NCBI GenBank assembly: GCA_029339195.1
Contig: JAPTJF010000136.1
Coordinates: 62,001-126,000 of the forward strand
Direction of reading: 5' to 3'
Length of the DNA: 64,000 bases
Source of the DNA: Micractinium sp. NFX-FRZ
Taxonomy: Eukaryota; Chlorophyta; Trebouxiophyceae; Chlorellales; Chlorellaceae
This document shows positions 1,118-60,416 of this stretch, in pieces. The translations under genes were made by a program, and so were the position numbers. The stretch's first letter is position 1. Each line of letters starts with the position of its first letter. The notes under the pieces are model-generated. The model had not been told where the DNA came from. It searched no databases and saw nothing but the letters and a program-made list of their open reading frames with translations.

Positions 1118-2875
1118 TCAGTATGGGGACATGTCGGAGCCAGGGGAGGCGGGCGGGCTGTCTGGGCGCACCGGCGTCAGGCCCGGGCCCCCGCGGGAGG
1201 AAGCACCGGCCGCCATGAGCATGCGGATCTCCCGAAGCGAGCTCTTGGCCTGCTCCTTGCTGCCTGCCCCAAAGTCGAGCAGACGGGTGTAGTACTTCTC
1301 TGCCAGCTCATACTCGCCAGTGTCCTGTGTGTGAGCAAGAGGCAAGGTGTTTAGGCGTGCACAAAGAGTAAGGGGACGTGTGCATGTGGGTGGGTGGGAA
1401 TGCAGGGGGGAGGGCAGGCAGGGCAGGAACAGCAGGGGCGCGTAGCACGGGACAGTGTGGATAGGTGACAGGTGCAAAGCAGTCCGCCCCACAAGCCATG
1501 CGGAAGCCTGGAACGTCCTACCAAGCATACGTGCTCACTAGTTTCGAGAGGCGGTAACACACAAGGCACACCACACTTGACCCAGCACACACTTTATACA
1601 TTCTGCAGGACGGTGAGCGCCTCCTCCACACATCCTGCCCGCTGATGCCCTCCCCATGGCTGGCTTCCCACTTCCCTTCCTCCCCACACCTACCCTCCCT
1701 AGATACCTTGTGGAAATCTGCCAGGAAGGTGAGCGCCTCCACAGCGTCCTGCCCGCTGATCCCCTCCCCATCAATGCGCTCCAGGTTCAGCCTGTGGTAG
1801 TGTGCCGCCTCGGCACGCTGGTTCAGCCGCTCGTGCAGCTTGGCCTGCAGCATGCGGGGGGCAGCAGGGATGAGGCTTGAAGCACACATCACTTCATACA
1901 TTAATGAGGCACACAATGCATGTGGTAGTGCGCCGACTATGAGCGCTGGCCCAGCTCGGGCACTGCCAAGCCTTCAATGTGATGCGGTAGCGCACGCTGT
2001 TTGCACGCACCATGCTGCCGCTCTTCTTTGTATCACCTGACACAATCAGAAGCCAAGCCTCCTGATATAAGGCAGCACGTGGCATGTGCATCACGCTGCT
2101 GCCCAAGACACGCAGTGCCACAACCCTGCCCACCCTGCACCCACCAGTCCGTGCACCGCCACGCCCTCCTTGTCGTATGGCAGCGCGCGCCGGTGGCAGC
2201 GTATGGCGGCGTCCAGCAGACCCAGCTGCTCCTGCTGGTAGCAGTGCCCCATTGCGTTCCACATGCGCGCATCCTGCGGACGCAGCTGCACCGCCCTGCA
2301 GCAGGGTGATGAGGATAAGGTTGCACACAAACCCAAGCACTACCATGTGCGGCATTGATTCCATGTGGCAATCAAAGCGCGCAAACAGGCATGTTTCACT
2401 TGAAACGAGGCAATGGTGCCACCTGCACCAGCCCCACAATGTGTTGGCGCGCCAAGTAGCAAAGCGCACTGCCAGCATGTACATGCTGGAATGGTGGAAG
2501 GCATGCTGACACGGTAGCGCGCACTTGCCTGCGGAAGTAGTAGAGTGCGTAATAGGGCATGTTGACGAGCTCGTACGTCTGGCCCAGCCCATACCAGGCT
2601 CGGTAGTCACGCGGGTTGACATCCACGGCATGGCGGTACGCCTCTGCAGCAGTTGAAAGGGACATAGCTTGACTGCCGTGGCTGGAGGCAGTGCAGTTTT
2701 GATGTCATGTCTATGTCTGTTGAAGGCCTATATCAGGCGACAAGCCTCTGCAGCATTTGAAAGCAGGTCAGCCAGGAAGCTCATTAAAGGGAGCCAGCTG
2801 GCAAGGTGCAGTTATAAGCAAGGCCACAACACGGTAATCAAGAGGGGTGCGTCCATGGTGAGGCGGTGGGCCTCT

Positions 2876-2911
<36 letters not shown>

Positions 2912-5900
2912 AGCGAGTAGCAGCAACAGACAAGCGGCAGCTCAGAGAGAGAAGCAAAGATGCCTTTTGACGGATTGGTAGTGCACCTCTGCAACTGGGC
3001 ACAAAGGGAGTTGCGGCTCAAGGAGCGATGAGAGCAGCTGGCCAGGGCGCCGGTTGCAGCAGTGCAATAAGGAAGTGCTGAGGCTGGCCAGGGCAGTGGC
3101 ACGATGTTCTGTAGCACCCAGTTCACAGATTGCAGCAATTGCCAGCGGGGAAATGAGGCACAGGCAGGAGAGGCCACTGTGATCGGCGCACGGGGAATGA
3201 ATAAGGGCTCGCCAAAAGCTACCAGCAATATGTGTGAGGTCCACAAATCCCGTTATTGCAGCACTCCAAAAGCCATCACCGCGGCACATCAATCAAGCAC
3301 TGCCCAAGTGAAACCACCTTTTGGCAACCAACCCACCGATGGCTGCAGGCGGGTTCTTCAGCTCCACATACTCGTGCCCCATCAGGGTCCAGGCAGACAG
3401 GTAGGAAGGGTTGAGGCGCAGCGCACGGCGGAAGTACTGTACCGCACGCTCGTGCATGCCCCTGCGTGGGCGGGTGGATGGAACGGCACGGGTTGGTTTG
3501 ACAACAAACAATGTGAAGCTTGCCATAAGCGTTTCTGTCCTAGCATCACGCACTCACAGATCTGCCCATTGACCAGGCATTGCTGTTTCCTTCCACCCCA
3601 AGACTGCCATGCCTGGCACACCTGAGTGAGTAGTAGTTTCCTATGACGCAGCACGTCTCCGGGCGGTACTTGTCGGCGGTGGCGCAGCGGTGCGCCAACG
3701 CGCTCAGGGCCGCAAACTCTTCTTTGACATAGAGGATGTTGGAGTATATGTCCATGCCCTGCAAAAAGGAAGGGAGAACATGCGAAACTCAAGACAGAAA
3801 ACGGTCCTCCTTTACGTAGCTTTTAACTTATGTTGTTTTAATTTTCTTGCTCTACACACAGGGTGATCCAATGCAAGGAAACCTCACAGAGAGACCGCCA
3901 AAGAAGTCGTGACGGTCTACGGCGCGGGCAACAAGAGGCCAGGGGCCATCGGCCCACCTCTATGCGGTGCGGGTTGCGCTGCAGCAGCTCGTCAAACAGC
4001 TCCTGTGCCTCGTCAAAGTTCTGCATTTGGTGGGTAGGGCATGACGGACAGACGGATGGCAAGTAATGGGTGATAAACGGCGGTACCAAGAGGAAAGTCA
4101 CACTGGGAGGCCGTTCAATATGTGCCACCCCAGAAATGAAGCCTGGCCCCAACGCCCCGGAATGCAGATCACCACAGATACCGCAGCTGCATGTCTGCGA
4201 TGTACCTGCAGGTTGTAGTGTGCCAGTGCTGCCAGCTGGATGACGGCATCAGAGCGCGGGAAGTCGGCTGAGAGGCCCTGCGACATACGTGCGGAGTTGA
4301 TACAAACCATCAAACTAAACACTGCAACTTGGCAAGCTGGTGTGGGCGGGGGGCACAGACAGATCATAACATTGACAGGCAGCTCAGGCAGCATAGAAGA
4401 GAAGAAGGCAGCCTGCAGGCACCTGCATGCCAAGCAAACAACTGCATCTGCACATACTGCAGCATCCCCTGTGTCATGGTGCACTTCTACCGAAACCATC
4501 GGTACAGCAGAGTATGGGTACTGCAGATGGTCAACTGCTACAATGCAGGCACCCGAGAAGCTCACCTGCAGGTGCTGCAGCGCCTCTGCATTGTGGTGCA
4601 TGTCCACACAGAGGGAGGCGAGGAAGAAGCGGCGCATGAAGTGGTCGGGCAGCGCCAGCTGGCCCACATCACCCATGTCGCTGAACACGGACTGAAGCGC
4701 CTGCAGAGGGCGCAGAGAAACCACGCAAAGGGAGACGGCAATAATGCCTCCAAGGTGGCACGGACGAGGAGCGAGCTGGCGGATTGAATACAACCATGCA
4801 GGCAGGCAGGTACGCTGGCAAGCGCCGCCCTCTCACCAGCCAGGCGCCCCAGTTGCAGGGGTAGGCCGTGACCGAGGCCGCCAGCACCTGCCGTGCCTGC
4901 TCCTTCTTCTCCCTGCAAGCACAGCACGGAGCGTGCATGCAATCAGGATCTGTTGCCTCCACAGGACCCAGCTAGAGCAGCAAGCCCAATTCAAAAGGAT
5001 TGTATCAGGCATGAGACCTGCCAGCCCATCCGTCTGCCCCATACAAACCGCACACCTGCCAGCACTGTGAACCGCCTGCCCACCTGTTTGCCAGCACAAT
5101 GCCATCTGCCCGCCTACCTTTCTGCCAGCACCCAGCAGGTGGGGCAGGAAGTGCCTGTCCCTGCTGCCTCAGAACAAGCACAACCAGCAAAGCGCAACTG
5201 AAAGCCCAGCCTCCACACCTGTCTGCCAGCACCAAGCCCAGCAGGTAAAGCAGGAAACCATCTGCCTGCCCCGCCTGCACCAAACCCTGCAGCTCGCTCT
5301 CCAGCCCAGCCAGCTCCGGGTTGCTGGCCTCTGCTGCCTGATTGGCAGTCTTGCTCTCTATCCGCCCCTCCCTGCGGGGTGGGCACCAGCGCAGGCCCAG
5401 GGGCAGCAGGGAAGGTGGCCAGGGGAGCAGGGCTTGCGGGTTCGCCACTACAGTGCCAACATGCTGCAGCAGTGCTGCAAGACATACGCAGTTGCAACTG
5501 GCAGATCATGCTGCTGCAATAGAGAGCAAACAGCTGGAATGCCACCTGTGCAGAGGCTCAAGCTCCTCCACCCCCTCGTGCGCAAACCTTGCTCACTCTT
5601 TGCGCTTCTCTCCCGCTAGGTAAGTGGCGTAGTAGCGCAGGAAGAGGGACAGAGGGTCCTGGCTGTCCTGCAGCATGTGCGCTGCGCTGCGGTACTCCTG
5701 CGCACAGCTCGCACCAGGGGAAAAGCATGGGGTGAGTGTGTACCATTCAAGGCCAGCCGATGTCCAAGCTCATGCAACCCATGGAAAAAGACTCCGCGCG
5801 TGCTGCTAGCGCCATGCTTGCCCAAAGAAAGGAGAGCACCCACCTTCACATCGAACAGGCTCCTGGCCAGCTCATATGCTGGGCTGGGGGCTGCGCTGGC

Positions 5901-6760: not shown

Positions 6761-7281
6761 TCAAGCTGGGGCATTCCACTGGGTAACGCCGGTCTGCGAG
6801 TTGTAAAAGTACGGGCGGCCCTCGGCTGCAGAGGGCAGCGTTTCAGCAGCAAAGCCACCACCAGTCAGCAGCAGCAGAAGTAGATGACGCCCAGTGCATG
6901 CTGCATCTGCAAGAAATGAAATCAGACCAGGGCACATGTGCGACACTGCCCTGGCACCGCCCACTCAGAACTGACTCACCAGTGTAGTGGACCTGCCATG
7001 GGCTGCCAGACTGGGACTGCTGCGCAGCCTGCAGGGGGCGAGAAGGCCATGAGTATTTGCAGAGCCGCCTGCAACAGCCTAACACAGGGCGCAGCAGCCA
7101 AGAGAGGTGCGCGCTGCAAGTTCCCTAAGTGCAGGCATCACCCAGGTTGCGCACCTGGGGTGCAGTCACAGCATCCATCAGGTTGCCACTGCCATAGCCA
7201 GCCCCTGGCTGCTGGCCGTAGTCAGATGCCGCCACAGGTGCCTGCTGCTGCTGCTGAGGGTAGGCATACGCAGCGGCGGGG

Positions 7282-7320
<39 letters not shown>

Positions 7321-10612: not shown

Positions 10613-13045
10613 TTACGCCAGGGTGGAGGCGTAGTCGGCGTAGAAGTTGTTGCTGCCTGCACATGTGAGCCAGCGCAAGAGGGGGGAAACAAGGGTAGGT
10701 CAGAATGGCGCGGTGGCACAGCAATTCAAAATCGGGCAGATGGGCCACCACCCGACCACAAGGCCACATCATCTTCCCCGCTGTCTCATGCGGGCGCTGA
10801 CGGCTTACCGGGCTCCTCCAGGTGGGTCAGGAGGTTGTCCAGGGGGCCCTTGCCGGTCACGATGGCCTGCAGGCAAACGGGTGGAGTAAGGTTTAGAAGA
10901 GTGACAGGCTCTGGCGCATTAGAGGTGCCAGGCTGGCACGTCCTCTGCTGCCAGGGCACCACCCGCGGGCTGGTTGGTGGGCCCGCGAAAAAAGACTCGT
11001 CTGGCATGAACCACAGCAATTGCTGTAACGGCAGCACTGAAATGCACACCACCATGCCTGAAAGCGCACCTGCACGAAGAAGCCGAGCATGGACAGCATG
11101 GCCAGGCGGCCGTTCTTGATCTCCTTCACCTGCAGGCAGGAGGCAGGCAGGCAGGCAGCAGTAGGTGAGCCATGGCGAGAGACTCGAACAAGCAAGCACA
11201 TGAACCATGTGCTTCTGCCTTGCATGCTCTCGGCAAACACACTCTCCCTCAAGCACCCGTTGATTCTTCTATCACAACAACCTTGCGCTCACCTTGAGCT
11301 CCGACAGGGTGTCGGGGTCGTCAGCCAGGCCCAGGGGGTCGAAAGCGCCGCCGGGGTACAGGGTGTCCTGGCCCTCGCCAAAGCCGCCGGGGCCCTCGCC
11401 GTTGGCGCTGCAAGAGGACAGGGGAGACGCAAGGGCACCGGCACGGTGAGCATGCGGGAGATAGAGCAGAGATGCCTTGGTTGCAAGCAGCAGCGGGAAA
11501 AGCAGAGCTTGCCGGATGCGCGACCCTCGCCCTGCACACGACAGCATGCTCGGCTGCCGCATTGGTGCCCTTCTGTGCTGCGACATGCGCTTACCGGTAG
11601 ATCTCCACAGCGCCCATGAGCAGCACCTGGACCACCAGGGTGGCAACAATGGACTGCGCGTGCACCAGGCCGGGGTTGCCCAGGTAGTTCAGGCCGCCGT
11701 CAGCGAAGATCTGGGCGCCAGCCTGCGGGGAGAGAATGCGGCAGCAGCGGAGACATTCAACATCGTGCTCAGGATAGCTGCACTTTGTTCTTGGGCACTG
11801 TCAGCACAGCACAGCTTTACAACTGGGGCAGACACTTTGCCAGCAGCACCAAAGAAACTGCGGCACAGGGCGGCGGCAGAGCGCGGCGTTGAGGCAAGCA
11901 TGCCCGCCACCCACGGCCCGCGCACCTTGAACCACACGGCCTCGCCGAACTCCACGCCGCTGTACTTCTCCAGCACCTCGGGGAAGATGCTGCAGGCAGA
12001 AAAAGCAACTCATTACAGTCATGCTTCGACAAGCAGCAGCGGAACATGCGGCACAACGCGCTCTGCAAGTTGGGCACACCGCGCGTGTTCAAGGTCAATC
12101 ACCCAAGCTCAGCCGTCTGGTCCCCACCCCCGCCGAAACAACTGCCGCATGGCTCACCAGCCCAGGGCGCCGAGCATGGCCCAGCGAGCGTGGATGACCT
12201 CAATGGTGCGGTACTTCTTGAAGGTCTCGGGGTCGGCAGACAGGCCAGAGGTGTCCCAGCCGTAGTCGCCGGGGAACTCGCCAGTCAGGTAAGAGGGCAC
12301 CAGGCCATCAGAGAAGGGGCCCAGGAACTTGGGGCGGTCAGCACCTGCATATGGCAACAGTGGGTGGTTGAGCTGTTGCCTCTGACGGGTGCGGCAACAC
12401 GGCCGGATGGGCCTGCGATTGCCGTCGGCGGCGCGCGCCGCGCGAGAGCAGCCGGCGCCGCTGCAAGGATAAGCCCCGCTATCCCCGACCGTCGGGCTGC
12501 CTGCCTCTGCCTAGCCGCTGCTCACCGTACCACACGGAGTCGTTGCTCTTCACGGGCTTCGCCTGCATCACAGGGAGGGCAGAGCAGAGACAAGGCAGGC
12601 CGTCATCGAGCTGGCTCAGGAGGGGGTCCGAAAGGCTGCAGCTGTGCCGCTGCTTTGGCGGTGAATCTAGGTTGTGTGATCCATAAGACCGTAGAGCCAC
12701 AGGTCAGAGAAGCGAGCCGAGAAGGTCCCAGGCTAGCCGACCATCGACCGCGGCAGCCTTTCGGGTCAGGCAGGGTTCGCTGGCTCAGAATGGGTGCAGC
12801 GTCGACTGACCTTCACGGTGCGGCGCATGGAGGTCACACGGCGCTGCAAGAGGAGCAGGGGGCAGAGGAGCGGCCCTCAACATCAGGCATGTGTTTCGAG
12901 GGTTCCCGCAGGGCCAGGCTGCATCCGCACGCTGAATGGGTGCAGCACTCGGTAAGGAACGACCCAGAGGCATGCTCAGCCGGAAGCCTGCACCTACCGT
13001 CGCCGAGGCGACGACGCCGGTGCGGGCAGCGCAGACGGTCTGCAT
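10613..13045 (-). CDS. LHCB: Major light-harvesting chlorophyll a/b-binding protein (LHCII type)
   Basis: Ten exons (12998-13045, 12811-12843, 12526-12562, 12158-12344, 11926-11989, 11595-11722, 11293-11407, 11070-11129, 10809-10866, 10613-10656) join in frame to 257 residues, the usual LHCII length. It binds chlorophylls and carotenoids in the thylakoid membrane as photosystem II antenna. Visible: a plastid transit peptide ([16 protein letters not shown]), an [11 protein letters not shown] stretch like the phosphorylatable LHCII N-terminus, the trimerisation motif WYG, helix B entry [14 protein letters not shown], helix [45 protein letters not shown], and helix [21 protein letters not shown]. 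The C-terminus ([12 protein letters not shown]) departs from the usual NNAWAFATNF. I see no exon echoes in its introns, unlike most neighbours. Confidence 0.95.
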
Positions 13046-13112
13046 GGTGGCTGAAACGACGATGGGGTGATTCCAAAGCAAGCTAGGAATGCCCGCGCCG
13101 CCCACCTTCGCC

Positions 13113-14605: not shown

Positions 14606-15144
14606 ATGCGCGCCCGCCGTTTGGCCCACACATTCTCGTCGTTCGCCACCAACGCCTCGCAGGGTGCGGTGGGAGGGCCCCTTGGCAGAAGCTGCGACAG
14701 CCGCTCACGTCACCGCCGCTCACGTCACCGCCGCTGCCCCTTCACCCCGCAGTGCACCTCACGGGCCAGACCTTGGTGCTGGCCCTCGGCTGCGTGGCGG
14801 GAGCTTGGACGTTTCTGCAGCATTTTGACGCCAAGATCGACGCCCTGGGCGCCAAGATGGACGCCAAGATCGACGCCCTGGGCGCCAAGATGGACGCCAA
14901 GATCGACGCCAAGATGGATGCCCTGGGCGCCAAGATGGATGCCCTGGGCGCCAAGATGGATGCCCTGGGCGCCAAGTTTGACGCCAAGATCGACGCCCTG
15001 GGCGCCAAGATGGACGCCAGCAACATCAGGGTGGCGGAGTTGGCGGGCGCTGTTGGCGTTCTGAGGAACAACACAGACACGCTGCTGGGTGCGGTGATTG
15101 AGCAGCAGCAGCAGCAGCAGCACGGGCCTGCAGGCGACACGTGA
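14606..15144 (+). CDS. Small membrane protein with hendecad coiled-coil repeats
   Basis: Two exons (14606-14663 and 14753-15144) join in phase to 149 residues. The N-terminus (MRARRLAHTFSSFATNAS) looks like an organelle targeting peptide. It is followed by one membrane helix (LVLALGCVAGAWTFLQHF). Next come tandem AKIDALGAKMD / AKMDALG units (11 residues with shorter variants, DNA unit 33 bp), a non-repetitive helix (VAELAGAVGVLRNNTDTLLG) and a short poly-Gln run. The pattern predicts a coiled coil projecting from a membrane, possibly in mitochondrion or plastid. The frame is open upstream to 14480, so a longer N-terminus is possible. A TGTAA follows at 15384. I do not recognise the family. 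Confidence 0.6.
14827..15015 (+). repeat. 33-bp tandem repeat array
   Basis: Units of the type GACGCCAAGATCGACGCC plus CTGGGCGCCAAGATG are repeated with 18-, 24- and 33-bp spacing. They encode the coiled-coil units of the protein at 14606-15144. The antisense frames also stay open across the array. Confidence 0.85.
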
Positions 15145-22432: not shown

Positions 22433-22454
22433 CTTTGCAACCGCTGTCTTGCTT

Positions 22455-29457: not shown

Positions 29458-29539
29458 TCGAGCGAAACATGAAGCCCGCAATCCACGCCACCATTCAGCC
29501 GCGCCGCCCGCCCAGCCGTCGACGACGCCATGAATGCGA

Positions 29540-44126: not shown

Positions 44127-47100
44127 TCACTGCTCCTGGCGCTGCCTCAGCAGCACATAGCCCAACAGCTTGTTCCTCTTGGGGGACAGCAGGGGCACGT
44201 AAAAGGCTCGGAAAAGGGGCGGCGACTGTGCGTTGTCCACAAATGGCAGCGCCGCAACCTCCTCCCACGCCGACGCGTCTCCTGCACACGGAACACACAG
44301 CAGGCAGTGGCTGGCACTCATGTGTCTGACAGGCGGCACTCGAGAACCAGCATGTAACAGTCAAGCTGCGACAACGAAGCGCTCGTGCTGTGCACGGCCG
44401 GCATGGCGCTATGCACCGTGCCTGGTGCCTTGAACAACTGCCTGCGCTCCGTGCCCTGAGAGGCCTGCTAAGCGTGCCCCGCCCCCGGACAGTGAGTGGG
44501 CACACCACTTCCCACTGCATGCCCTGCCACGCACCTAGATCTCCCACATCCACAACCGCCCTGGGTCCTCTGTCCTCAAACTCTTGCCCATGCGGCACAT
44601 GTGCCCATAACCCGCATTCGTTGAATGACAAGTCCTGCACCCACCTATCTCGTCAATCACCGCCCCGTTCCTCCTGTCCCTCAGGGTCACCACATAGCTG
44701 CAGTTGGCGGCCGTGGGCCAGTAGTTGGCTGGCTCCTCGCGGTTGCGGTCGTTGAAAAATGGGGGTGCAGAACGCGTGCCGCCCTACAAATCACGGGGCT
44801 TGAGCAGGCAGGCAGGTGATTGCAAGGTGGGCCCACAGGTGGCGGATGTGCTATGCTGTGCGATCTCTGAAGCACATAGGTGTCGCACGTGCCGTCCTTG
44901 GTGGGGGTGGAGTGCGGGAGGTGTAAGAAGCGGAGGTGTGGGGCAGGCAGGCGCGCTGACAGGTTGGCAGGTGATGCAGGTGTGAATCTTCCAGTGGGAA
45001 ACAGACGTGGAAGGCCTGGGTGTCAAGTAACCATTTCAACGCTGGTTACTGCCACAAACAAGCACGGAGCTGGTGGCAAAGCCCAGGTGTAGTGTTGTAG
45101 CGTTGTCAGGCTGCAATCACGCACTCCACTGTTGATTCTCGCTGGCACGCAAGAAAGGCCGCAAAGGCAGAAGTAATGGCGGACACCGATACGCTGGGCA
45201 CCCGCGCCAGGCTGCAAGTATACTTCCCTGCTGCATCATTCCCGCTGCCCACAGTGCACTCACCGCAGCCTGGTCAAACTGGCGAGGGAGCAGGCCACTG
45301 AAGCCCGATTTGATAAAGTGCAGGCGGTACCGCGGGCCCGGCAGGAAGAAGGCGGAGGGGAAGCGGTACCACTCGGCTCCAGTGCACACAGCGATGGGCG
45401 CGCCCTGCCCGACCACCTGCAGGCCATAGGCAGGCCCGAGGTAGCGTTGGGGCAGACAGGCATGGATGATTAATATGTACATTGAGGTACACGTACAGGG
45501 GCATGCATGCCCAACAGAGATGCTGCGCCTGCAGCCTGCCTGCCATGCTGCGCTAGAAGGAAGCTGCCAGCGCACGCAGGCACAGCACCTCCACAACGCA
45601 CAGGCAGAATGAGCTGCAAACTGACCTCTGGCAGGTGGCTGTAGATTTGCATGGGGGCTCCGTAGTTGAGCACCAGTGCTGCCGAGCGGCTGAGCGCCAG
45701 CAGGCAGGTGCCGCCCAAGAAGAGAGCGGCGCCGACCTTCACGGCGCCTGCAGTCAGGCGCTGCGGCAGCACCATGCCCAGCAGCCGCCGGCCCAGGGAG
45801 CACAGCGCAACAAAGCTGGCAGCGGCTGCCAGGCAGACCTGCGAACAAGCGAGGCGTAGTAACAACACAATGGTGAGCCTTGGCTGCAAGGAGGCAATAA
45901 CAGCAGAATGCCAGGGCAGGGAACATGGCATGCCAGCTTGCACACAAAGAAGCAAAGCATCCCTCTGCCGTTGCCAGCCTCTCACCAGTGGGTACGCAAC
46001 GTACAGGAAGCGCTCCTCCTTGTGCGGTAGAGCCGTGATGGCCGCCAGCCACACATACAGCGGCGACACGCACACTAGCAGGCGCAGCAGCAGGCCTCTA
46101 GGGCTGTTGTTGACGCCACCACCGCCTGTTGGGGCACTCAGGCTGGCGGCCCCTGCGACCGCTGCCAGCAGCGGCATGGCCAGGGCTAGGGGGAGCAGCA
46201 TTTGGAAGTTGTTGAAGCCGTTCCGCAGGTAGTAGGTGGGGCCTTCCACGCCATAGAGCGCGCTGTCACCGCCCCCCACCACATTGTATTCGATGAAGTT
46301 CCACAGGGAGGCCTGAACGTGGTTCAAGGGATGGCAGGATGGAAGGGAAAAACTAAACACTTGTGTTGACTTGTGAGGCATACGGAGATTGCATTTGGTA
46401 AATTGGTAAAGTTTTGCAGGGAGACCCTGCAAGGGTTGGTGCAAACAGGTTGAGAGCAAAACAATGCACAGTGAAGTGAGAAGAGGAAGGCGTACACGTG
46501 TGCAAGGGGTTGTAAAATCAGGCCACGCAGTCAAAAGAGCCAGTGCTGCAGCGGCTTGTTTGTGGTTTCCCCGTTTGTCATTGCCCACTTTTGCCATAGT
46601 GCCCGCTCCACTGCTCACCGTCCAGCGGCCAAAGGAGCGCCGGTCTACCAGCACCGCACGTTGCACTTTGCTGAATCATTGCCCTGTATGACGTTCTCCA
46701 CCAATGATACATAAAAGAAATTCACGCACTCACCGTCCAGCGGCCATAGTAGTGGCGGTCAACCAGCACCAGGGGTCCCAGCGTGCCCAGCAGGCACAGC
46801 AGCAGCACGCCCACAGCCTTGAACAGGGGCGCGGCAGCCAGGACGTAGAGAGCAAAGGGGAAGAAGGCAAAGCCCGCCACGCACCAGCCCCACACCACGC
46901 CTGCATGCGGGCAGGGGCAGCAGAGGAATCTCTTGATAGCTGGCCATTTTTTAGGAGAGGAGCACCACGAGGGCGTACCACAAGGGAGGAAATGCTCTTC
47001 ATTAGTAAGGATGCCAGCCAGGGCCAGGGTTCAAGGGCGGGCAGGTCATAACCAGCAGTCTAACTGGGCCCTTGTGCCATGCTGGATATACCACAGGGTG

Positions 47101-48654: not shown

Positions 48655-50564
48655 TTATTTCCACTCGTCTGGGTGCCGCAAGAATGCTGCTGCTGCTTCT
48701 GCATTCGCCACCAGCGGGTGCGGCGGTGCCTGCACACCCGCCCGCTGCCACCGCCCCACAAAGTTCTCCTCTACCGCCCGTGCCTGCATCAAGGAGGTTG
48801 CACACACACAACAGATGGAATTGCAGATCACCTGGCAGATAAAATCCCCACAAGCCCCTCAGTTGTGGCGGCCCGCCACTGCCCTGGCCAAGAGGGCTTC
48901 CCCTTGCCCTTCGCCTCTTCCCAAAGGAGGTCATTCTCACCAGCAGCACCGCTTTGGGCTCTCCTCGTGACGTGAAAGGCGCCGGCCGTATCGTGAGCAT
49001 GCCATTGCGGTTGCCAAACACGACATCTGTGAGGAACCGGTCTCCTATCATGATCAGCTGCTCCGCCTTGCACCTGCGGAGCTGGACCAAGTTACGTCAG
49101 GCCAAGCAAGCACGGCTTCTTGTTGCACCTGTTTCACCCCTTCCTTGCACGATGCTACATCACTTCCTTTCTCGACTGCAGCTCAGCTGGCTAGCTCACC
49201 CAAAGTGCTGCTCCATGTCGTCGCTGCCGCCAGCTGGCTTCTTCTCTCGATGCCGCAGCACAGGGATGCCCAGCGCAGACTCGAGCGCCTCCGCCTCCTT
49301 GCCTGCAAGGGGCGATACGCGACTTCCGGCTAAGACAAACAGTTGCAAGGTTGCCTGAGGATGCCCAGCGCAGCCGCAGGGTCTCCGCCTTCCTGCCTGC
49401 ACTGGGGGGTAAGCATGATCAGGCGATTACCTGCCGTAGTGGACAGCTGAAGTTCCTGTGGGGCTGAACTGTTGGTGCACGCCGACCTCACTCAGCAGAA
49501 AAGACAGCGACAGGAAAGCAGCAACAACAGCATCCTTGCAGCGGCGGAAACGACAGGGCATGGAAAGGCAGCGGGCCCCGCCCTCTCACCCTCTGGGTCA
49601 AACTGCTGCAGCCCCGCTGAATTGCTGTAGAGCACCAGTTTGCCGTCAAACGCCCGCTTGCATTCTGCCAGGCTATCACGAGCGTGGGGGTGCAGCTCCA
49701 GGCTGTAGGGCTCTGCAAACAGCAGCAGCGAATAGGGGCATGTATACGCAGCGTGTGCTGCTTAAACTCTGCCAGGCTGTTGGGGTATGGGGGAACAGTT
49801 CCAGGCTGTAGGCTCTGCATGCGTTGAATGGACCAGACTGTTAGGGATCTGCAGGCAGTAAGCGGCAGGCAGTGTGTGGTAGCTCCAAGCTGTCAGGCCT
49901 CGCAAAGCAGCAATGGCGGCCGCTCATGTGCTAGACTACGCATGACAAGCAGAGGAGGCCTCCCATGCCTGCTGCAGCAGGTGAGCAAGTGTGGCGGCTG
50001 TAATCAGGAACATGTCTGCCTTGAGAGGTGGGCCCCACATAGCTAGGATTCAAGGCGCCACTGCCTACCTGTGAGAGTGTTGTCTTTGTCAAAGACGCAG
50101 CCCTGGAAGCCTGCTGCACGCAGGGCTGCCCAGTTCACCCAGCGTATGTCGGCCACTGCTAGGTGAGGTAGCGCCAGCGGCTGGTCACTCTGCATCGGAG
50201 CAGGGTTCCACGCAGGTGTTGGACAGTAAGTTGGAGGCATATCAATTCGACCCAGCTTGAGTCAGCACGCGAGCAGAATCCAGGGAGTGCAAGCGCCAAG
50301 TGGGACAGCGGGCGGTTGCTCTGCAAAGAGGGGAAGGGTTGCATGGAGAAGGGTGGAAGTTGGAGGCACGGGGTTGACCACTCTTGGTCCAACATCAACA
50401 GGATGTGTGCAATCGTAGATTAGGAAAACAACAGGCGCTGAGCAGGCAGCACGGAGGGAGCACGGCTCAACGAGAGCTCTGCCTGCCAGCCGCCACACCA
50501 TGGCCACTCGTGCGAAAAGCGCTATCCCTGCCGAGTTGAAGCTCTGCCCAAGGCGCTGCATCAT
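48655..50564 (-). CDS. PGPP1: Phosphatidylglycerophosphate phosphatase (HAD family, PGPP1/Gep4 type)
   Basis: Six exons. The enzyme dephosphorylates phosphatidylglycerophosphate to phosphatidylglycerol in plastid or mitochondrial membranes. Exon 1 (50499-50564) gives MMQRLGQSFNSAGIALFARV, matching the plant PGPP1 N-terminal QRLNVAG-like segment. Exon 2 (50069-50189) has DIRWVNWAALRAAGFQGCVF and the HAD motif FDKDNTLT (nucleophile and acid Asp). Exon 3 has PYSLELHPHARDSLAECKRA and LVLYSNSAGL (motif II Ser). The next has KEAEALESALGIPVLRHREK with KPAGG (motif III Lys). Exon 5 has LIMIGDRFLTDVVFGNRNGM (motif IV). The last exon ends AFLRHPDEWK. Several introns hold exon echoes, including one of the exon 2 start. 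Confidence 0.92.
49355..49410 (-). repeat. Exon echo in the PGP phosphatase gene (copy of 49248-49312)
   Basis: GGATGCCCAGCGCAG and TCTCCGCCTTCCTGCCTGCA repeat the start of the exon encoding KEAEALESALGIP, including its acceptor, about 100 bp upstream in the gene. Confidence 0.75.
49764..49905 (-). repeat. Exon echoes in the PGP phosphatase gene (copies of 49665-49716)
   Basis: The acceptor and start of exon 3 (CAGAGCC-TACAGCCTGGA on the coding strand) recur at about 49764-49818 and, more decayed, near 49880-49905. Confidence 0.65.
50275..50330 (-). repeat. Exon echo of exon 2 start, PGP phosphatase gene
   Basis: The parent reads CAG then SDQPLALPHLAVAD; the copy about 130 bp upstream reads CAG then SNRPLSHLALALPG. 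Both keep an acceptor, so splicing to either keeps the frame for a short way. Confidence 0.75.
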
Positions 50565-51034: not shown

Positions 51035-54000
51035 ATGGGGGGCTGTAGCTCGAAGCCCGGCCTGAAACCCTCAAAACTCGACGCCGATGGCGGCCAGGCA
51101 AGGGCGTCGGAGTCTCGGGCGACTGTGGAGGTGAGCAAAGATTTCGTGAGCCGGCCAGACCCGCACTGCACCGCAGGATTGGCCCCAACCAGTGCTCGTC
51201 GCTTCTTGCAGGCCCAGCCTTCGCCTGCCGCCCAGGAAGGCCCCGAGGATCGTCAGGCTTTCGCATACTCTGGGGCCCCGGCGCCGTTCAACGAGAGCGA
51301 GGTGGGCAGTGGTACCTGCCCAGCAGCTGGTTGCCGCTCGGTGGGGTCGCCCGCTCGTGCTGCCTGCTCCTGCCGTCCGTCATCGCTTGGCTCTGCTTGC
51401 ATCACTGCCGCTGCTTTTGGCGCCTATGTTCCAGCCCTCTATGCTGATCAGCATGCGCTGCTACTGCGCCCCTGCCCCCCGCAGCGGCTGGGCCTGCTGC
51501 GAGCGCTGGGGGTGCTGGACAGCGAGCAGGGGCCCGACCAGTTCGACGCAATCACCAAGCTGCTGTGCGCCGTCTTTAACGTGCCCATAGCACTTGTATC
51601 GCTAGTGGATGCAGGTAGGAAGGCATAACAAGCAGCCAGGGGGCAGGAGCATGTGTGTACCAAGCCAGCCAGGGAGATGTACGGGACTGCGACAACTGGG
51701 ATACCTGCCAAGCAAGGAAACCCCACACAAACCCCTCACCGCTTACCCTGATGTTGATTTCTCCTGGGTACTTCCAACTTATCTGGCCCGCAGAGCGGCA
51801 ATGGTTCAAGTCGGTGCAGGGGCTGCCAGGCTGCTCGCAGACGGGGCGGGACGCCTCTTTCTGCGCATGGACGCTGCTGCCAGAGACCCCTTATGTGCTG
51901 GTGCGCCCGGGACGTGGGCTTTCCGTGCCAGCGATGCCTGCAACGGTTGTGTTGTTGCATGGGGCAGTCCAGTGCCACACTCCTAGGTAGGGGCAGGGGG
52001 TCGTGAACGCATGTGCCCTGTGCCGGCTTTCTGCAAGCCTGTCCTCCCCCATTTCTTTCGTAAGCATGACCGCCGAGCTCTTTGCATGCTCTCCCGTCCC
52101 ATTTGGCTTGCGGACTACAGTCTTGCTTACTTCAGGAGCGCGCGCTGGAAGGACAAGCGGTTCATTTATCCTCAACCGTCCCATCCAACCCCTCTCTTGC
52201 CATTGCTTCTCTTCACATCTTCCTCTCAAGTTTGTGGAGGGTGCCTCGGAGGACAACACCTTTCACGGGACCTTGCTTGTTTTGTTTTGCCTCCACGCCA
52301 ACCCGTCTCTCTCCTCCATTCTGCCTTCCTGCAAAACTTGTGAGCGGTTCAGCTGCCATTCTGCACAATTTGTTCTGGACAAGCGCTTCAGAGACCACGC
52401 TCACAAAGGGGCCTGTTACGTTTCAAACCCCCTCTTCCTCACATGTTGCCTGTTCAGATTGTGGAGGATGCCTTGGAGGGCGAGCGATGGCCGGAAGAGT
52501 GCGCTGGCGCTGCTCCCTTGCTCCCTCTTCTTTCTCCTCCGAACTCCTCACTCATCTTTGATTTCTGTTTGTACAGATTGTGGAGCATGCTTTGTAAGAC
52601 AAGCAGCGCCCCTCTGTTTAGCTGCGTCGCCTCACTCCTGCTTTCCCTGCCGGACTCTTCAACCTGTTCAGATTGTGGAAGATGCGATTGACGACCAGCG
52701 GTTTCGGAACAACCCTCTGGTTGTTGGTCCGCCAGGCATTCGCTTCTATGCAGGTGCAGACTGCGGCCTGAGCGGCGGTGTGGCACCTGCTGGCTGCGCA
52801 GCACGAGGATGCTGGCCGCGTGTTGCGTATTTGTGTCGCCCACCACTGCATCGTCTCGTGTGCTTGCCAGCACCTGCGCCCCGCCCGTGTTCCTCACGCC
52901 CATCCCGCACCACTCTCACATCCCCCGCTGCAGGTGCACCTCTCATCTCCTCAGCCAACGGCTACAGATACGGAACCGTGAGTTGCAAAAGTATTGAGCA
53001 GTTGCGAGGCAGAGCAGTGTTGAGGGTGTGCGTGGCCAGAGGCGGCCGCTATGGCTTGTTCTATAGCTCTAAGCTTGTGAGAGGGAGGAGGTGCTTGCCC
53101 TCCTCCTCAGCCATCGGCTATCGACATAGCTTGGTGCGTGTGGTCTCTGTAAGTAGCTGTGCGTGCTGTGCTGGGGCAGAAGCAGAATAGTCTTAGTTAC
53201 TCTTCTCTGCCAACGCCTGCCGACACGGCATGGTGGGCATTTGGTTGGCGCAGGCCTTGTGGCCGGCAGCATGCAGCGCAACCACCCTGAAAAGAGCGGC
53301 TTTGCCGCCTATTTCCCGCCACTGTGCTCTTGCAGCTGCGCATGAATCACACCAAGCCCCACTTGCCTCTCGTCATGCCTTTTGCAAACAGCCCCTCCCC
53401 TTCCCGCCTTGCCCCCTCGTGTTCCGTCCTCTGCAAGAAGCCTCACCGTCCGCCTCAATCCCTTCCCTCTTTTCCCAAACACTGCAGCTGTGCGTGATTG
53501 ACACCAAGCCCCACCACGAGTTTGCGGCAGAGCAGTACAACATGCTCATACAGTTTGCGGAGCTGTGTGTGCGGGAGATTGAGAAGGACAAGGTGGGGCA
53601 GGCAGGGAGCAACAACGCTCCATGTAGGGCAGCATGCATGGCACAAATTGTGCAGCCGTGCTTGCGGGGACTGCAAAAGAGATGGCCAGAGGTCAAGCAG
53701 GCTGGCTGTGCGGAGGACTGCCAAGGGAAAGTTTGGTTGAGCGGGCAATGCACTGTGAACCCAAAGGCGGCTCACAGCGCCAACTATGCTGGCTGGCTCT
53801 GATGTAGTTGCGCCACGCTCCACCTGACCTGTCGGTTCTTCTGTCTCCCATCACCATTCACATTCTCCTGCAGCTGACAACGCTGCAGCGGCTGGTTCAG
53901 TCGGCAGGTGGGCGCAGCGAAGGCAGCATCTCCCCGCTGGCCTCGCTACGCACCAGCGCAGCGCCCAGCGTGACTCCCACGCCTTCGCTGGCGGCAGCAG

Positions 54001-57000
54001 CTTTGGAGCACCCTGCGGCCGCTGGCGGCGGCGGCGGCGGGGGCGGCAACGTAGGCCAGTGGGGTCTCACACGTGCAGCTGACTGTTTCAGGTAACAGAG
54101 CGCATGAGGGAACAATGATATGAAGGAGCATGGTAAACTCAGGGTTGGTGCCCGGTGCTGTGCCAGCCCTGTGCACGCACTGCTTGCAGACGGATGAGAT
54201 GAAGCGCATCCACCGCTGAACTGCCGCTTTGCTGACGTCACTTTCTGCATCATGTGTTTGCTGCCGCAGGGAGGGCGTGATGCTGGTGGACGTTGCCAGC
54301 CCTGCCTGGAGCGTGCTATACACCAATGAAGCCTTCACGGCTTTCTCGGGTGTGCCTCTGCCTGCTTGTTGCATGCTTGGAGGAGCATGAGGAGGCTTGC
54401 GGGGGGAGCGTCATTGCGCTTGTGTGGCATGCATGCAAGGCCCTGTTTGTGCCGAGGAAGCCTACTCAAAGTCCGTTCCAGATGTCGTCTCACAGCCTTG
54501 CTTCAGTTGCCGCAGATGTGCCACGGCGCGAAGCTGCATCGCTGGGCTTCTGGGAGCTCTTCAGCGGGCCAGGACTGGGCCCTGCATCTTTCCAGGTGGG
54601 CTGCGCCCCCTGCAATGCACTGTTGCCCAGGTTGTGGAAGCACATCCAGCATGCCGTTGCAATCAACAATGCAATCAACATCGAAATCTGAGCACTACTT
54701 TTGCGATTGTTTTAAAGCAGGGCTCGTTCGAGCACTGGGAAGTAACGCCTTCTCCTCTTCAGGGGCACCGTCTTCTCCTTGCATCGCTCGCTCCCTGAGC
54801 CGCCCCTCCTCTCTGAAACGGCCTCAATGCTGCAGGAGAGCATCTCTGCAAACCAGCCCTTCACCACCAAGGTTGCCCTGCAGCGCGGCTTCTGTCAAAC
54901 CGCGCAGCCCACAGCAATCGACTTCAGGTACGCGTGTGGGGTGGCAAGAGGCACGGCCAGGCCGAGAGACAGGCAGGCTTTCACCAGACCATCTGACCCC
55001 CAAAGGCCACCTCTGCTTCATCACTGGGCAAAGCAACGCGCTGGATATGCTGCACATGTTCTGTTCACCCTGGTGATCTCCCGTTGATTATCAATATCTT
55101 TCCGGATCCTGCCATGTCAACCTGTTGCTGCGCAGAGCCCCACTCATCTCCTCTCCAAGTCAACCTCGTCCCCATTGCTGTCTTTTTCTTTTTCTTTTTC
55201 TTTTTGTTAGTGCAGGCCACCAGGCACAGGCGAAACGCAGGGCCAATGAGGGCTGGTGGGAATTCCCGCTGAGGTGACCCCCCATCCACCACAAGTGAAT
55301 CAACCCCGTTGCTGTCTCTTGTGTGCAGGCCAGCGGCCACTGGCCAGGTGGGAGGGCATTCCGAGCTGGTGGGCATCCCTGCTGACGTGGAGTCCAACAC
55401 AATTGACCAGCAGCTGGGAGGGCAGCAGCCACTGGGACCCAAGTGAGTACAGCAGTAGTGCCTGCGGCCCTGCCGGCTGGGATGCCTGCTTGTGCTCCCA
55501 AACCCCTGCATGAGGCACGTCCAGGGCGACTATACTGCACTCAAGGGTGCCCTCTGCCTGACTGCTTGCGGCCGCGTGTCGACAGCACGCCACACAATTC
55601 CCTGACCCTGTGGCGCTCCTGTGCCACACTCCTTCTGAACACGTGTCAGCAACCCCGTTGGTACTGCTGCAGGTACTACTTTGCAATCATCCGGGCAGAT
55701 GACAGCAAGCAGGCGCCGCTGCCCTCCCCGAACGGCTCAGCAGCAGCAGCGGCGCCTGCTGGCCCCCCACTGACCAGGCTGGCCGTCCCGGCACCAACAG
55801 CTGTGACGCCCACTTCCCCGTTTGCCGTCATGCCGGCTTCCGTCTCGCCGCCGGAGAGCGGTACCGTCTCTCCCATGCCCGTGGTCAACTCTGCTGGGGC
55901 GTGCCAAGCTGCCGCTGGGCAGTACAACCAGCAGTACAACGGGCGTGCCAGCATGGAGAGCGAGCGGTCCGTGACTGCCATGCCTGCTTTCAAGCGTGCC
56001 ATGCCCTCAGCCTTCACCGACGTTCGGCTGGGCCCACTCATCGGCCGGGGCGCGTACGGCAGGGTGCGCGGGAGGCAAGCTTGCAAGCTGGGGAGGGTTG
56101 TTGGGAGGGGAAGGCCGAGGGCAGGCAAGCGTACGACAGTAGCCGCAGTCATTTGCTATTAGCGCCACAGTTGCTGAACGCATGTGTGGCTGTCCCCAGG
56201 GCAGCCAAAGCGGGCGGGCATCTCGACTTTGTTCAACCTCTTGTCTCTCCTCCCCTGCCGTGGCTGCCTGCCCGACTCCCTTTCTCTCCCTCCTGCCTCC
56301 CTCCTGTTTGGGTCCACCACGGCTCGCAAAGCAGCACGCGTTAAACTGCCTGCCTCCTGAAAACTGTCCCTCTGCTCCCATGCAGGTGTACCGCGGCTCG
56401 TGGAACGGCACCACCGTGGCGGTGAAAGTGATTGAGACCACTGAGCCTCTGGAGGAGGGGGAGGGCCTGGCCCCAGGTGCGTGCTTCACAGCGTTTGCCG
56501 TGTGTGGCTGTGGGTTGGTTGAACGAGGGGCTCAGAGGCAAGGATGGCTGAGACAACAAAAGAGCTTGAGAAAGGAGGCCCGGCCCCAGCTGTGCACGGT
56601 ACCTGCCTCACAGCAGCAACAGCAGTGTGGGCTGCCAGCGTTTAGTGCGTACTGAAATCGATTTTGTTTGCGCTTGGAGCACATTGCTTGGCACTGCCAT
56701 CAACTCGACAGCCCCCTTTGTCCCTGCTGCTGGTTACTGCAGGCAACGGCAGCTCTTAGGATGGTGCTGTCCAGCGTTGTCTTCCGGTTCTTCCCTCTTG
56801 TCTGTGAGCATCTGTCTCTTCATATGTGTAAGCCCTCTCCTCCCCCGTTTCGTTTGTGCAGGCAAGAGCGGCATCTTTGAGGCGGTGCTGTCATCCAACC
56901 TGAGCCACCCCAACATTGTGCACACTTACCAGTATGCCTTCCGCCCCGTCACGGTGAGTCAATGGTGACAGTCTGATGTGTGGTAGTGCGGGCGTGGCTG

Positions 57001-60000
57001 CCAAAGTTGTGCACCCGGGAGTGAAACGGCGGGTTGTGCACAGCAGTTCCCCAGCTTCCGCCGTGAACACTCTTTCCACGCACTGGGCATGCCTTGCATT
57101 CTGTCGGTCCCCCTGCTGTTTTGACACGTTCAACACTCTCTGTGCGTTGCAGCCTGTGACAGGATTGCTGGTTGGCACCACTCAACTTGCGGGCACCTTG
57201 CCAGGCCTGTGTTATATTTTTCTTCCTGTGCAGGTGGAGGAGCCTGGCCTGAGGAGGGTCAATTGTCCTCGCAACTTCCAGTGACTTCGTTTTTGTATGA
57301 CATCCTCGTTCTACTGTGTGCAGGCAGAGGAGCACGAGGAGGGGCGGGTGTCTTCTGGTTCTCAGGGCAGCAGCCTCAGCATGCCCCCCAGCCAGGGCAG
57401 CAAGGTGAGGCGGTGGTTGCGTAGTGAGGGTGTGGGTTGAGTGGGAAGGGTGCACGGGCCCAGTGGCGGGACAGGCGCGTGCCTCAGGCAAGGGATGCAG
57501 TAATAGGCGGAGGGAAGGAGTGCATGAAAAGTTCCAATGCCTTGCGCCCAAGCCCCCGGCGTCTGCTCTGTCTTTGCCCTGCGCTCGTGCCCCCCCTCCT
57601 GCTCACCTCCCCTGCGTTCACCTGCCCCTGCGTGCACCTCCCTTTGGCCTTCACTGCAGCCTGCCACCGAAGTGTGGCTGGTCAGCGAGTTTTGCAACCG
57701 GGGGCCGCTGCTGACGGCCATTGAGCGGGGCGCCTTCCTCACGCAGCCCTCCAGCCAGTATGGGCAGCCCAACCTGATCTCGGTGCTGCAGGTGAGTTGT
57801 TTGAAGTGTGTTTTTCTCGTTTGCATGGTGGAAAATCTGTCTGTTTTGCTCCTCTTCAGAGACAGCGCGCCCAGCGCGGCCTCAGCTGGGTGCCTCACGT
57901 GAACAGTGCCCGCAGAAGTGAGAGCTGCAAGGAAAGCACGTGATGCAATGCGATGCCCACAGCTAGCAGCCAAAAAGCTGTGCAGGCCATGGCCATTGGT
58001 TTCTTTCAAGCAAGCTCTCCATCGTGACCCCTCTTTCCCCACCCCCCGCCCACCCCCCCCCCCCCCCCCCCCCCCGCCCCTACTTGTTGGCCCTCTTCTT
58101 CCTCACACCTCAAATTACGCCTCTACCCCTTTCACCTACACTGCGCCCTCCCCTCCCGCCCTCCCTTCCTGAGGCAGACCCTGCAAGAGATTGCAGCCGC
58201 CCTCCAGTACCTGCACCGCAACGACGTGCTGCATGGGTAGGTTGAATGTGGTATTGACAAGAAAGCCAGGGAGATGCAGCATGAAACATGGAGAGTTGCC
58301 TGGTCTTGCTGACGCTGACAAGCGCATGGAGAGTGCGCGACGGTGCAAGCTGCGCTTATCACTTGCACGGTACTGCCAGCAGCGTGGCCAGCCGGCTGTT
58401 TGACAAGGTGTGCCCGAGCTGACACCCTCTTTGCATGCCCGTGTATGGACTGTACCACGGCCGCGGTCTTTGTTTGCAACCTCCGCACTGTCAACTGGAA
58501 CCCGCTTCCGCCTGTGTTCTGTGTGCAGCGACCTCACGGGCGGCAACGTCCTGCTAACAGCATCGGACAAGGACACGCGCGGCTTCTCTGCCAAGGTTGG
58601 TGCATGTTTGTTGCACGGCGTTTTATTGCGATCTTGCTATTTCCACCCCAACAGCTGTGCACCATGAGACCAGGTTTGCTGGTCGCATTGCTTGCTGTCC
58701 TAAGCCCATCAGCAGCGGTGGATTAATGTGCCAGCGCGTGCAGTAGGGAGGGCTCCTTCTGGACTATGGAAACCTGTCGTCGGCCACGAGGTCCATGACC
58801 TTCTTTCCTTTGCATTAGCACAAAAAAAACTCCCAACCCCTGCATTCCCTCTTCAGACCACCTCATACCTTGATCATGTTAATCCCTTTTCGACCCCTCC
58901 TCTTCTTCAGATCGTGGACTTTGGGCTGAGCAGAGTGTGCTCCGGTGACTACCTGCGCACCCGCACGCTGGGCTGCGCCGAGTACATGTGAGACTCAGTG
59001 CTCAGAAGGTTACATGTTGACTGCTGTGGAAAACTGCTGTGCTGCGCCGAATTCGTGTGAGAGTGGCTGCTGAGGTGTCAAAGGGACAGGCCTGTCCTCA
59101 CCCCTCCTCCGCTGCCCCTGGGGCTGTTGTAGCAGCAGCCGCAGAGTGCGCTGCAATTTTATTTGGAGCCTCACACGCAGACTTGCCAGTATCAAGCACC
59201 TTGTATTCGTGCTGCTTGCTCTAATGTAGGCCGCCTGAGCTCATTACCGAGGGAATCCTGACTCGCGCCGCCGACGTGTATGCCTTTGGGGTCATCACAT
59301 GGGAGATCTACGTGGGCAGGTGCGTTGCTCGTAGCACAAAGGAATATGTAGTAGTGAAGCATGCCGTGGGGGATGGTGGCAGGCGGTGTCGGCTGTGGTG
59401 GCTGCACAGGTAGCAGCTTCACCTTGCCCCTCTTCCCGGCCGCCAACCCCAGTGCCAGTTTCTGGACCACACCAGCCGCAATCAGCCTGTGCTCCCTGCC
59501 TTGCACCCCCACAACAACCCACGTGTTCTGCCATGTTCCTGCACTCTCGCACAGGCGTGCATGGGATGGCTTGAAGCCCACCGAGGTGCTGAGGAAGGTG
59601 GCCTCCAACACCAAGCTGGAGTTCCCGCCCCAGACGCCACACCGCCTCAAGGTGTGGGCACGTGGGGCCGGTTTGGGCCCTTGACGGCACTTGTTGGAGT
59701 TCACGTTCATGTGCAAGTTGTGCAACCACGCCCAGGGGTCTGCACGTGTGCAAAGCATGCCTGGACTGTGGCGCTCCGGACCCCCCACCACCCACACACT
59801 GCCACCGCTGCTGCCGTGCTGTTGCTGGCCACGCGTGCGCTTCTGTGCAGGTGCTTGGGGAGCGCTGCATGGAATACGTGCCTGCAGCCCGGCCCACCAT
59901 GGACGAGGTCCTGTCAGGTGCGTGTAACTCTTTCCCCCGCATGCGACACATATAGGCAGTAGGTTCCTGTCTCATGTGTTGCACATGCGCCCATCTGCCA

Positions 60001-60416
60001 CACCTGCCGAGCAGTCGGCTGCGAGGGCTCAGCTTCAATCCACACTCTCCGTTGCCTCATGTCGTACTCTCGCCCTGCACGTTCGCCCCGTCTCACCGCT
60101 TCCTCTGCTCTTGTTGTTGGGTTCCAGCGTTGTGGGCGGCGCGGCACAATGGGCGTCTTGAGCAGTTCCTGCAGTGCCCCCTGCAGAGGTGAACAGCAGC
60201 TTGAGCGGCACGATGGGCAAATTTTACAGCTGCGGCTCTGCCTACTTACTCTTTGCTAATTGTTTTGGTGGGCTTCCTTGCTTTCCTGCAGAGGTGAACA
60301 GCATCCTGAGCGACACGATGGGCATCCTGCAGCAGTTCCTAGCTGCCAGCACGGCGGCTGCGGCGGGCAGCAGCGGCATGCCTCCCATCCTGCAGCCCTC
60401 CGACCCCTTCCAGTAG
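51035..60416 (+). CDS. GAF-PAS-protein kinase with N-terminal acylation signal
   Basis: Twenty-three exons (first 51035-51301, last 60292-60416) join with every phase consistent to 895 residues. Residues 1-8 (MGGCSSKP) fit N-myristoylation plus palmitoylation. A GAF domain spans about 90-245 (ALGVLDSEQGPDQFDAIT, NVPIALVSLVDAERQWFKS, SFCAWTLLP, GIRFYAGAPLI, YRYGTLCVIDTKP). A PAS-like domain spans about 318-440 (REGVMLVDVASPAWSVLYTN, GFWELFSG). After a Ser/Pro/Ala-rich linker, a TKL-type kinase runs from about 555 to 865: glycine loop GRGAYG, VAVK (Lys584), catalytic loop HGDLTGGN (Asp723, Asn728), DFGLSR (Asp747), GCAEYMPPEL, DVYAFGVITWEIYVG and ARPTMDEVL. HGD replaces HRD, so it is a non-RD kinase. 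The design suggests a membrane-anchored sensor kinase whose GAF/PAS part controls the kinase. The introns are full of exon echoes. Confidence 0.92.
52223..52612 (+). repeat. Three exon echoes before GAF exon 4 of the kinase gene
   Basis: The exon start IVEDAIDDQRF (parent 52666-52712, behind TTCAG) is preceded in the same intron by three copies: about 52223-52258 (TTTGTGGAGGGTGCCTCGGA), 52457-52494 (CAGATTGTGGAGGATGCCTT) and 52576-52612 (CAGATTGTGGAGCATGCTTT). Two keep the CAG acceptor and a pyrimidine tract. Confidence 0.9.
53098..53140 (+). repeat. Exon echo in the kinase gene (copy of 52936-52978)
   Basis: The parent encodes ISSANGYRYGT before its donor; the copy reads SSAIGYRHSLV in the following intron. 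A weaker third copy may lie near 53205-53235. Confidence 0.75.
53333..53375 (+). repeat. Exon echo in the kinase gene (copy of 53486-53528)
   Basis: CAGCTGTGCGTGATTGACAC is echoed as CAGCTGCGCATGAATCACAC, both followed by CAAGCCCCAC. The copy lies about 150 bp upstream and keeps its acceptor. Confidence 0.85.
55160..55280 (+). repeat. Long exon echo in the kinase gene (copy of 55295-55400)
   Basis: Intron end, acceptor (TGCAGGCCA) and over 60 nt of the following exon are duplicated; GAGCTGGTGGGCATCCCTGC matches GGCTGGTGGGAATTCCCGC. The copy also holds a TTTTTC repeat. Confidence 0.8.
56739..56790 (+). repeat. Exon echo in the kinase gene (copy of 56858-56905)
   Basis: GCAGGCAAGAGCGGCATCTT is echoed as GCAGGCAACGGCAGCTCTTA, followed by the shared GGTGCTGTC block, about 120 bp upstream. 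Confidence 0.8.
57229..57272 (+). repeat. Exon echo in the kinase gene (copy of 57318-57350)
   Basis: TGTGCAGGCAGAGGAGCACG is echoed as TGTGCAGGTGGAGGAGCCTG, about 90 bp upstream with its acceptor. Confidence 0.7.
58053..58075 (+). repeat. Poly-C run in a kinase intron
   Basis: About 23 consecutive C residues lie roughly 100 nt upstream of the exon starting at 58178. Confidence 0.85.
59035..59068 (+). repeat. Exon echo in the kinase gene (copy of 58962-58995)
   Basis: Exon end GGGCTGCGCCGAGTACATGT is echoed as GTGCTGCGCCGAATTCGTGT about 73 bp downstream, donor included. Confidence 0.8.
60178..60225 (+). repeat. Exon echo before the last kinase exon (copy of 60286-60330)
   Basis: CTGCAGAGGTGAACAGCA is shared exactly between the two copies. 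The copy continues GCTTGAGCGGCACGATGGGC against TCCTGAGCGACACGATGGGC. Confidence 0.85.

Follow-up and report, generated by a model that had tools for sequence, protein, structure and literature searches.

The introns of the window (the whole 64-kb stretch analysed, bases 62001-126000 of contig 136 in an assembly of 66.07 Mb and 838 contigs) seem to repeat, in blurred form, the edges of the exons beside them, and this has led us to wonder what such copies are and how they came to be there. We favour, with a probability of roughly three in four, the reading that they are the remains of short same-strand tandem duplications spanning an exon-intron junction. The sample comprised the window and 25 further 10-kb stretches (26 sequences, 314 kb); the window and 20 loci formed a first set, while five new loci were held out, with the gene finder and the threshold frozen.

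Exon models are the foundation of any such comparison. Long open frames are mostly not genes (only 3 of 20 gave a Pfam match), and for this reason we built a home-made hidden-Markov gene finder, self-trained on the window and the 20 10-kb loci, where it yielded 47 genes and 473 introns with a median intron of 249 bp. The Pfam scan covered seven window models, the other three, KH gene included, lying outside it, and gave matches for APC8, PH and WW, LHCII, RPB2/Maf, PGP phosphatase/ALG9, GAF kinase and AMMECR1; the fused RPB2/Maf and PGP phosphatase/ALG9 models are gene-finder errors. The ALG9 model aligned without gaps to three orthologues at its copy-bearing junction, and the identity of the predicted protein to two Micractinium proteins (77%) and one Chlorella ohadii protein (68%) places the alga near Micractinium and Chlorella. 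Compared with the solved RNA polymerase II RPB2 chain 5flm_B, the RPB2 model was gap-free at copy-bearing junctions up to about residue 1007, with gaps elsewhere. Its exon 40887-41084 carries about 30 extra residues (283-312) without counterpart in the solved RPB2, probably the result of a wrong acceptor picked by the gene finder.

Repeats in the window were scanned with a 32-base window and at least 24 matches, low-complexity windows being removed, and in a separate edge test each exon edge was aligned to its own intron at a score of at least 16, with the inverted edge, shuffles and other introns as controls. Low-complexity matches, introns below 90 bp and exon edges below 30 nt (or below 25 nt in the second edge survey) were removed before counting, and a pair was counted only if its lag, score and identity lay within the bounds set for the test in question. 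A blastn self-comparison was rejected as the main detector, as it masks repeats near the diagonal and is blind to very short lags; its apparent lag floor near 100 is partly due to this masking.

In the first set, 73 of 840 exon edges reached score 16, the window contributing 20 of its 239 edges and the loci 53 of their 601. Among the controls, this score was reached by none of the 840 inverted edges, by 0.08% of the 2520 shuffles and by 0.28% of the 2520 comparisons with other introns; edge similarity thus exceeds that of both shuffled and other introns, the check proposed along with the original prediction. At lags 15-1000, the scan of the window gave 45 repeat clusters, among them both exon-intron pairs and simple tandem repeats, versus a single one at lags 3000-3985, and inverted copies at the same distances were almost absent from the blastn self-comparison of the window, in keeping with the claim that the copies always lie on the same strand. 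The five held-out loci gave 3 of 165 edges, with no inverted match and 0 of 825 shuffles, a rate above chance yet well below that of the first set (p=0.001). As for the 22 coordinates at which decayed exon-edge copies had been named, 18 beat all 400 neighbourhood shuffles (Table 1), which confirms the copies themselves and most of a list said to exceed 20 loci. Seventeen of these 18 pair with sequence overlapping the modelled neighbouring exon and 14 reach or cross its edge; the partners of 1597, 30783 and 53098 end short of the edge by 27, 11 and 13 nt (for the first of these coordinates, a doubtful 10-bp exon is modelled at 1593-1602), and 52223 pairs with another copy of its own family, not with an exon. 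The other four are weak or failing: 55160 has p=0.005 with a partner that is not a modelled exon, 50275 and 57229 have p=0.03 each, and 8175 has p=0.43, although the ungapped scan still lists 8171-8202 at lag 57 with 24/32. These four coordinates, together with the minisatellite rows that GC-rich introns yield, are what could be said for chance similarity, low complexity or assembly artefact, an explanation to which, given the near-empty controls, we attach almost no credence. An artefact is unlikely for most copies because they are diverged, and a duplicated assembly would not give such graded divergence; the stages of decay that had been described are indeed seen.

Table 1. Copies of exon edges in the window, with the LHCII gene. 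Positions are those of the window; the copied sequence is followed by its modelled exon in brackets.
Feature	Position	Strand	Copied sequence (exon)	Lag or spacing (bp)	Match	Shuffles
APC8, donor-side copy	1602..1657	-	1717-1771 (1690-1844)	115	score 36	0/400
APC8, acceptor-side copy	1918..1955	-	1790-1827	128		
APC8, acceptor-side copy	2736..2763	-	2632-2659 (2511-2643)	104		0/400
APC8, second acceptor-side copy	2832-2882	-	same edge (2511-2643)	231		
APC8, donor-side copy	5116..5180	-	5217-5291 (5219-5371)	101	score 23	0/400
LHCII, no exon-intron pair found	10613..13045	-			10 modelled exons, Pfam Chloroa_b-bind	
Maf (RPB2/Maf model), donor-side copy	30785..30848	-	30899-30966 (30888-31075)	114	score 31	0/400
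RPB2, acceptor-side copy	34737..34778	-	34527-34570 (34461-34556)	210	score 18	0/400
RPB2, donor-side copy	35231..35274	-	35336-35380 (35337-35475)	105	score 17	0/400
RPB2, donor-side copy, absent from the original prediction's examples	36060..36125	-	36185-36253 (36201-36323)	125		
RPB2, acceptor-side copy	37183..37206	-	37074-37097 (37023-37096)	109	score 22	0/400
RPB2, acceptor-side copy	39491..39549	-	39392-39450 (39334-39441)	99	84.7% over 59	0/400
RPB2, acceptor-side copy	40345..40402	-	40248-40305 (40164-40304)	97		0/400
RPB2, second copy	40454-40507	-	same edge (40164-40304)	204		
ALG9, donor-side copy with GTGAG donor	46614..46655	-	46729-46770 (46734-46900)	115	37/42 identical	0/400
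PGP phosphatase, acceptor-side copy	49359..49414	-	49264-49320 (49200-49302)	95	score 31	0/400
PGP phosphatase, acceptor-side copy	49760..49819	-	49656-49717 (49590-49712)	104	score 30	0/400
GAF kinase, three successive acceptor-side copies	52222-52259, 52449-52486, 52568-52605	+	52663-52700 (52672-52753)	227, 119, 95		
GAF kinase, donor-side copy, short	53103..53120	+	52947-52964 (52934-52977)	156	17/18 identical	0/400
GAF kinase, acceptor-side copy with TTGCAG	53331..53362	+	53483-53514 (53488-53592)	152	28/32 identical; direct 24, inverted control 16	0/400
GAF kinase, acceptor-side copy	56733..56771	+	56852-56892 (56862-56953)	119	score 18	0/400
GAF kinase, donor-side copy	59036..59074	+	58967-59005 (58911-58987)	69	score 21	0/400
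GAF kinase, acceptor-side copy with CTGCAG	60180..60219	+	60285-60324 (60292-60416)	105	37/40 identical	0/400

Across the 26 sequences, 60 of 563 modelled introns (about one in ten) hold a copy of an adjacent exon edge at lag 60-160, and in a further 15 all pairs are intron-intron. The 314 kb contain 100 exon-intron pairs at lags 15-1000, with 67 at 60-160 and 37 at 94-119; 45 of the 100 fall within 90-134 bp, the mode being about 95-120 bp, and a smaller bump near 200-240 often represents the second copy of one edge, some junctions bearing two or three copies. Donor-side and acceptor-side edges both occur, as had been reported (36 versus 31 of the 67 pairs). At the level of single genes, the KH gene, counted earlier among the copy-bearing ones, offers a single acceptor-side match, and a weak one (score 16, lag 96), and LHCII is without copies as stated, a lack that may be chance in a gene of 9 introns; no relative of this LHCII gene was found in the viral contigs searched for one. 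That the process is genome-wide holds insofar as 19 of the 26 sequences contain at least one exon-intron pair at lag 60-260, but seven contain none and the pair rate is markedly uneven among sequences (chi-square 81.9, 25 df). Introns with a pair at lag 60-160 are longer than those without (median 365.5 versus 231 bp), as expected if duplications lengthen introns, although the comparison is confounded, a long intron having more space for a pair. In the 54 kb that lack a gene model there are 9 pairs at lag 60-160, versus 30 intron-intron pairs in 167 kb, and the process is therefore probably not confined to introns; three of the 9 come from one repeat, possibly a missed gene.

The recent cases reveal the anatomy most clearly. 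Contiguous head-to-tail arrays of at least two direct copies cross junctions at L017:3111-3282 (unit 96), L018:3675-3812 (unit 79) and L021:2983-3046 (unit 113), and another lies inside an intron at L008:4262-4424 (unit 133); homology in these arrays extends over the full unit, which supports the claim of local tandem duplication across junctions. Under the tandem-duplication reading, a unit mostly of about 60-160 bp would happen to span a junction, and, with the donor or acceptor duplicated, the original splice site would persist intact on the outer side. The mRNA would then be unchanged, with the intron longer by one unit; such duplications would be harmless because the spliced exon is unchanged. 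The inner copy would then decay like any intron sequence, its exon half staying recognisable longest because the other copy is held by protein selection and its intron half blurring faster because both copies change. To judge from gene models and orthologues, splicing probably uses the outer site. By analogy with small tandem duplications of human and mouse, the event itself may be the repair product of a staggered break, by overhang fill-in and then end joining. PMC8355091 describes small tandem duplications from break repair in mammalian cells, involving 3-prime overhangs, CST, Pol alpha-primase and end joining; those duplications resemble ours in being short, direct and head-to-tail, whereas the copies described here are mostly decayed, occur in an alga, have a mode near 100 bp, are concentrated at exon-intron junctions and are known from sequence alone. 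An introner or other mobile element was also considered and is not supported for the units searched: two units, one of them the ALG9 unit at 46614..46655, were searched in the genome and gave one match each, so these two are not mobile elements.

How contiguous the older units were is less simple to read. In 30 pairs, the intron flanks beyond the splice site resemble each other more than unrelated flanks do (mean z 1.7, SE 0.18), with 13 above the control 95% level, and 10-23 of the 30, by indel rate, fall under the 5% level of the tandem simulation. It is tempting to think of spaced local copying, in which template switching would copy the 40-70 bp around the splice junction and insert them about 50 bp away, without any contiguous unit. 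Homology spans shorter than the lag accord with it: at least 90% of the lag is spanned in 0 of 12 pairs with a best window of 28-29 and in 2 of 7 with 30-32, while tandem simulations give 10-56% and 63-89%, respectively, by indel rate and age. The exon part is moreover rarely above 60 nt, and cases of the type of L021:1072-1138 show a near-identical core with weak flanks. Raising the simulated indel rate nevertheless removes much of the span gap, and young intron repeats do have a high measured rate (39 indels to 70 substitutions); in addition, several recent arrays are contiguous and the intron flanks are homologous on average. Free insertion would also often copy the exon interior, yet of 77 matches, 37 stop precisely at the junction and 51 no more than 5 nt from it. 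We thus regard spaced copying as rather improbable.

The copies decay neutrally. In 65 pairs, mismatches at codon positions 1, 2 and 3 amount to 151/847, 154/851 and 179/846 (17.8, 18.1 and 21.2%), an evenness that argues against any coding constraint on the copy. Pairs picked for reaching the junction keep GT in 13 of 20 donor-side and AG in 14 of 17 acceptor-side cases, as might be expected of decoy splice sites or alternative exon ends under selection; yet once the last six exon bases played no part in the choice of pairs, donor-side copies retained the inner splice dinucleotide in 9 of 15 cases and acceptor-side copies in 9 of 19 (counting as lost the one that extended past the end of its stretch), as in the neutral simulation (54% and 55%). 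Lags of exon-intron pairs also ignore the reading frame, 27 of 87 being divisible by three, and with mismatches indifferent to codon position it seems very unlikely that the copies are functional. Among exon-exon repeats, 37 of 41 lags are divisible by three (26/26 in L005 and L026, 11/15 elsewhere); L005:5279-5850 and L026:5370-6800 contain many in-frame internal repeats, which dominate these exon-exon counts.

A neutral tandem model at constant rate does not fit the data fully. We simulated tandem duplications at random places and constant rate, with indel rates close to the measured value. In the data, pairs that span a junction exceed those confined to introns by 67:30 (60 versus 15 introns), whereas the simulation gives a ratio of 0.8-1.0; in exons of at least 100 nt, a copied exon part of more than 65 nt occurs in 8 of 47 observed versus 250 of 462 simulated pairs. 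Recent copies, too, are fewer than a constant rate predicts, with only 7 of 67 pairs at 30/32 or better versus about half of those simulated, so that the description of the process as continuing is borne out by the existence of fresh arrays but not by their number. A cohort near 15% divergence (p=0.15) fits the pair ratio (1.9) and the identity distribution better than the constant rate does, its share of pairs at 28/32 or better being 0.31 as compared with 0.28 observed. It misfits in the exon part (median 42 versus 31 seen), in the fraction of pairs without intron part (0.53 versus 0.18 seen, an excess partly due to the simulation having let the conserved splice site decay) and in expecting shorter intron parts than seen. 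From these shortfalls, it would follow that duplications were commoner in the past or that young ones are removed, and that long exon parts are removed or not made. One tentative inference, which we hold possible without preferring it, is that the junction itself is where duplications arise or survive: units would copy about 25-60 nt of exon with some 50-80 nt of intron, either through breaks or repair patches positioned at junctions by chromatin or transcription, or through splicing that purges duplications with exon enough for the inner site to compete. If so, a single signature would unite the excess of junction over intron pairs, the shortness of the exon part and the scarcity of recent copies, and introns would be a readable record of splice-site competition.

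The copies had also been linked to intron gain, and this link was not borne out. If tandem duplication of an AGGT-bearing exon segment gave rise to an intron, similarity is expected at a lag equal to intron length. This distance, rather than AGGT, was tested in 470 introns of 60-400 bp: at score 15, 2 of 470 introns showed it versus 4 of 1880 offset tests (p=0.34), and at score 13, 4 of 470 versus 7 of 1880 (p=0.25). Similarity at such a lag is present in L010:8928-9053 and L025:2083-2193, but without significant excess over the offset controls, and the copies sit inside longer introns at lags below intron length, which makes their being remains of intron birth hardly tenable. L010:8928-9053, a 126-bp intron whose start resembles the downstream exon start, is a possible single case of birth by tandem duplication. 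This route to new introns is well described (PMC3443670, PMC2891723; also PMC4974935). Both systems include splice-site sequence in a tandem duplication. In the known route, what is duplicated is a piece of exon containing AGGT, and an additional intron as long as the duplication may result; in our case, the duplication takes in a junction that is already present, and instead of a gained intron the old one would become longer. The ingredients are known, and among the papers listed in the literature searched, judged by titles and abstract starts and over a limited range of journals, no description was found of their combination, decayed junction-spanning duplications as a widespread intron feature. 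Tandem arrays within introns are otherwise familiar as intronic minisatellites. The units described here are likewise tandem in introns, but hold exon sequence and a splice site, with few copies and a locus-specific unit.

Each copy can be regarded as approximately a one-sided clock, because one partner is a constrained exon. Such copies could date duplications, reveal how substitutions and indels accumulate neutrally in introns and show the stepwise lengthening of introns in a small genome; with a record in about one tenth of the sampled introns, the size spectrum of small duplications becomes measurable without experiment, as does the way in which a duplicated splice site affects survival. 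They are also a warning, since gene finders may mistake copies for exon ends. Three further observations deserve mention. L021:1072-1138 repeats an acceptor and the beginning of an exon almost identically (best window 32/32), 113 bp upstream, and is modelled as a separate 27-nt exon; it may be used as an alternative exon. Outside the modelled genes of the window, a coding-like 12/33-bp tandem repeat at 14821-15019 may be part of a missed repetitive protein gene. At 61053-61120, just outside the modelled AMMECR1 gene, a 34-bp unit occurs twice with 94% identity.
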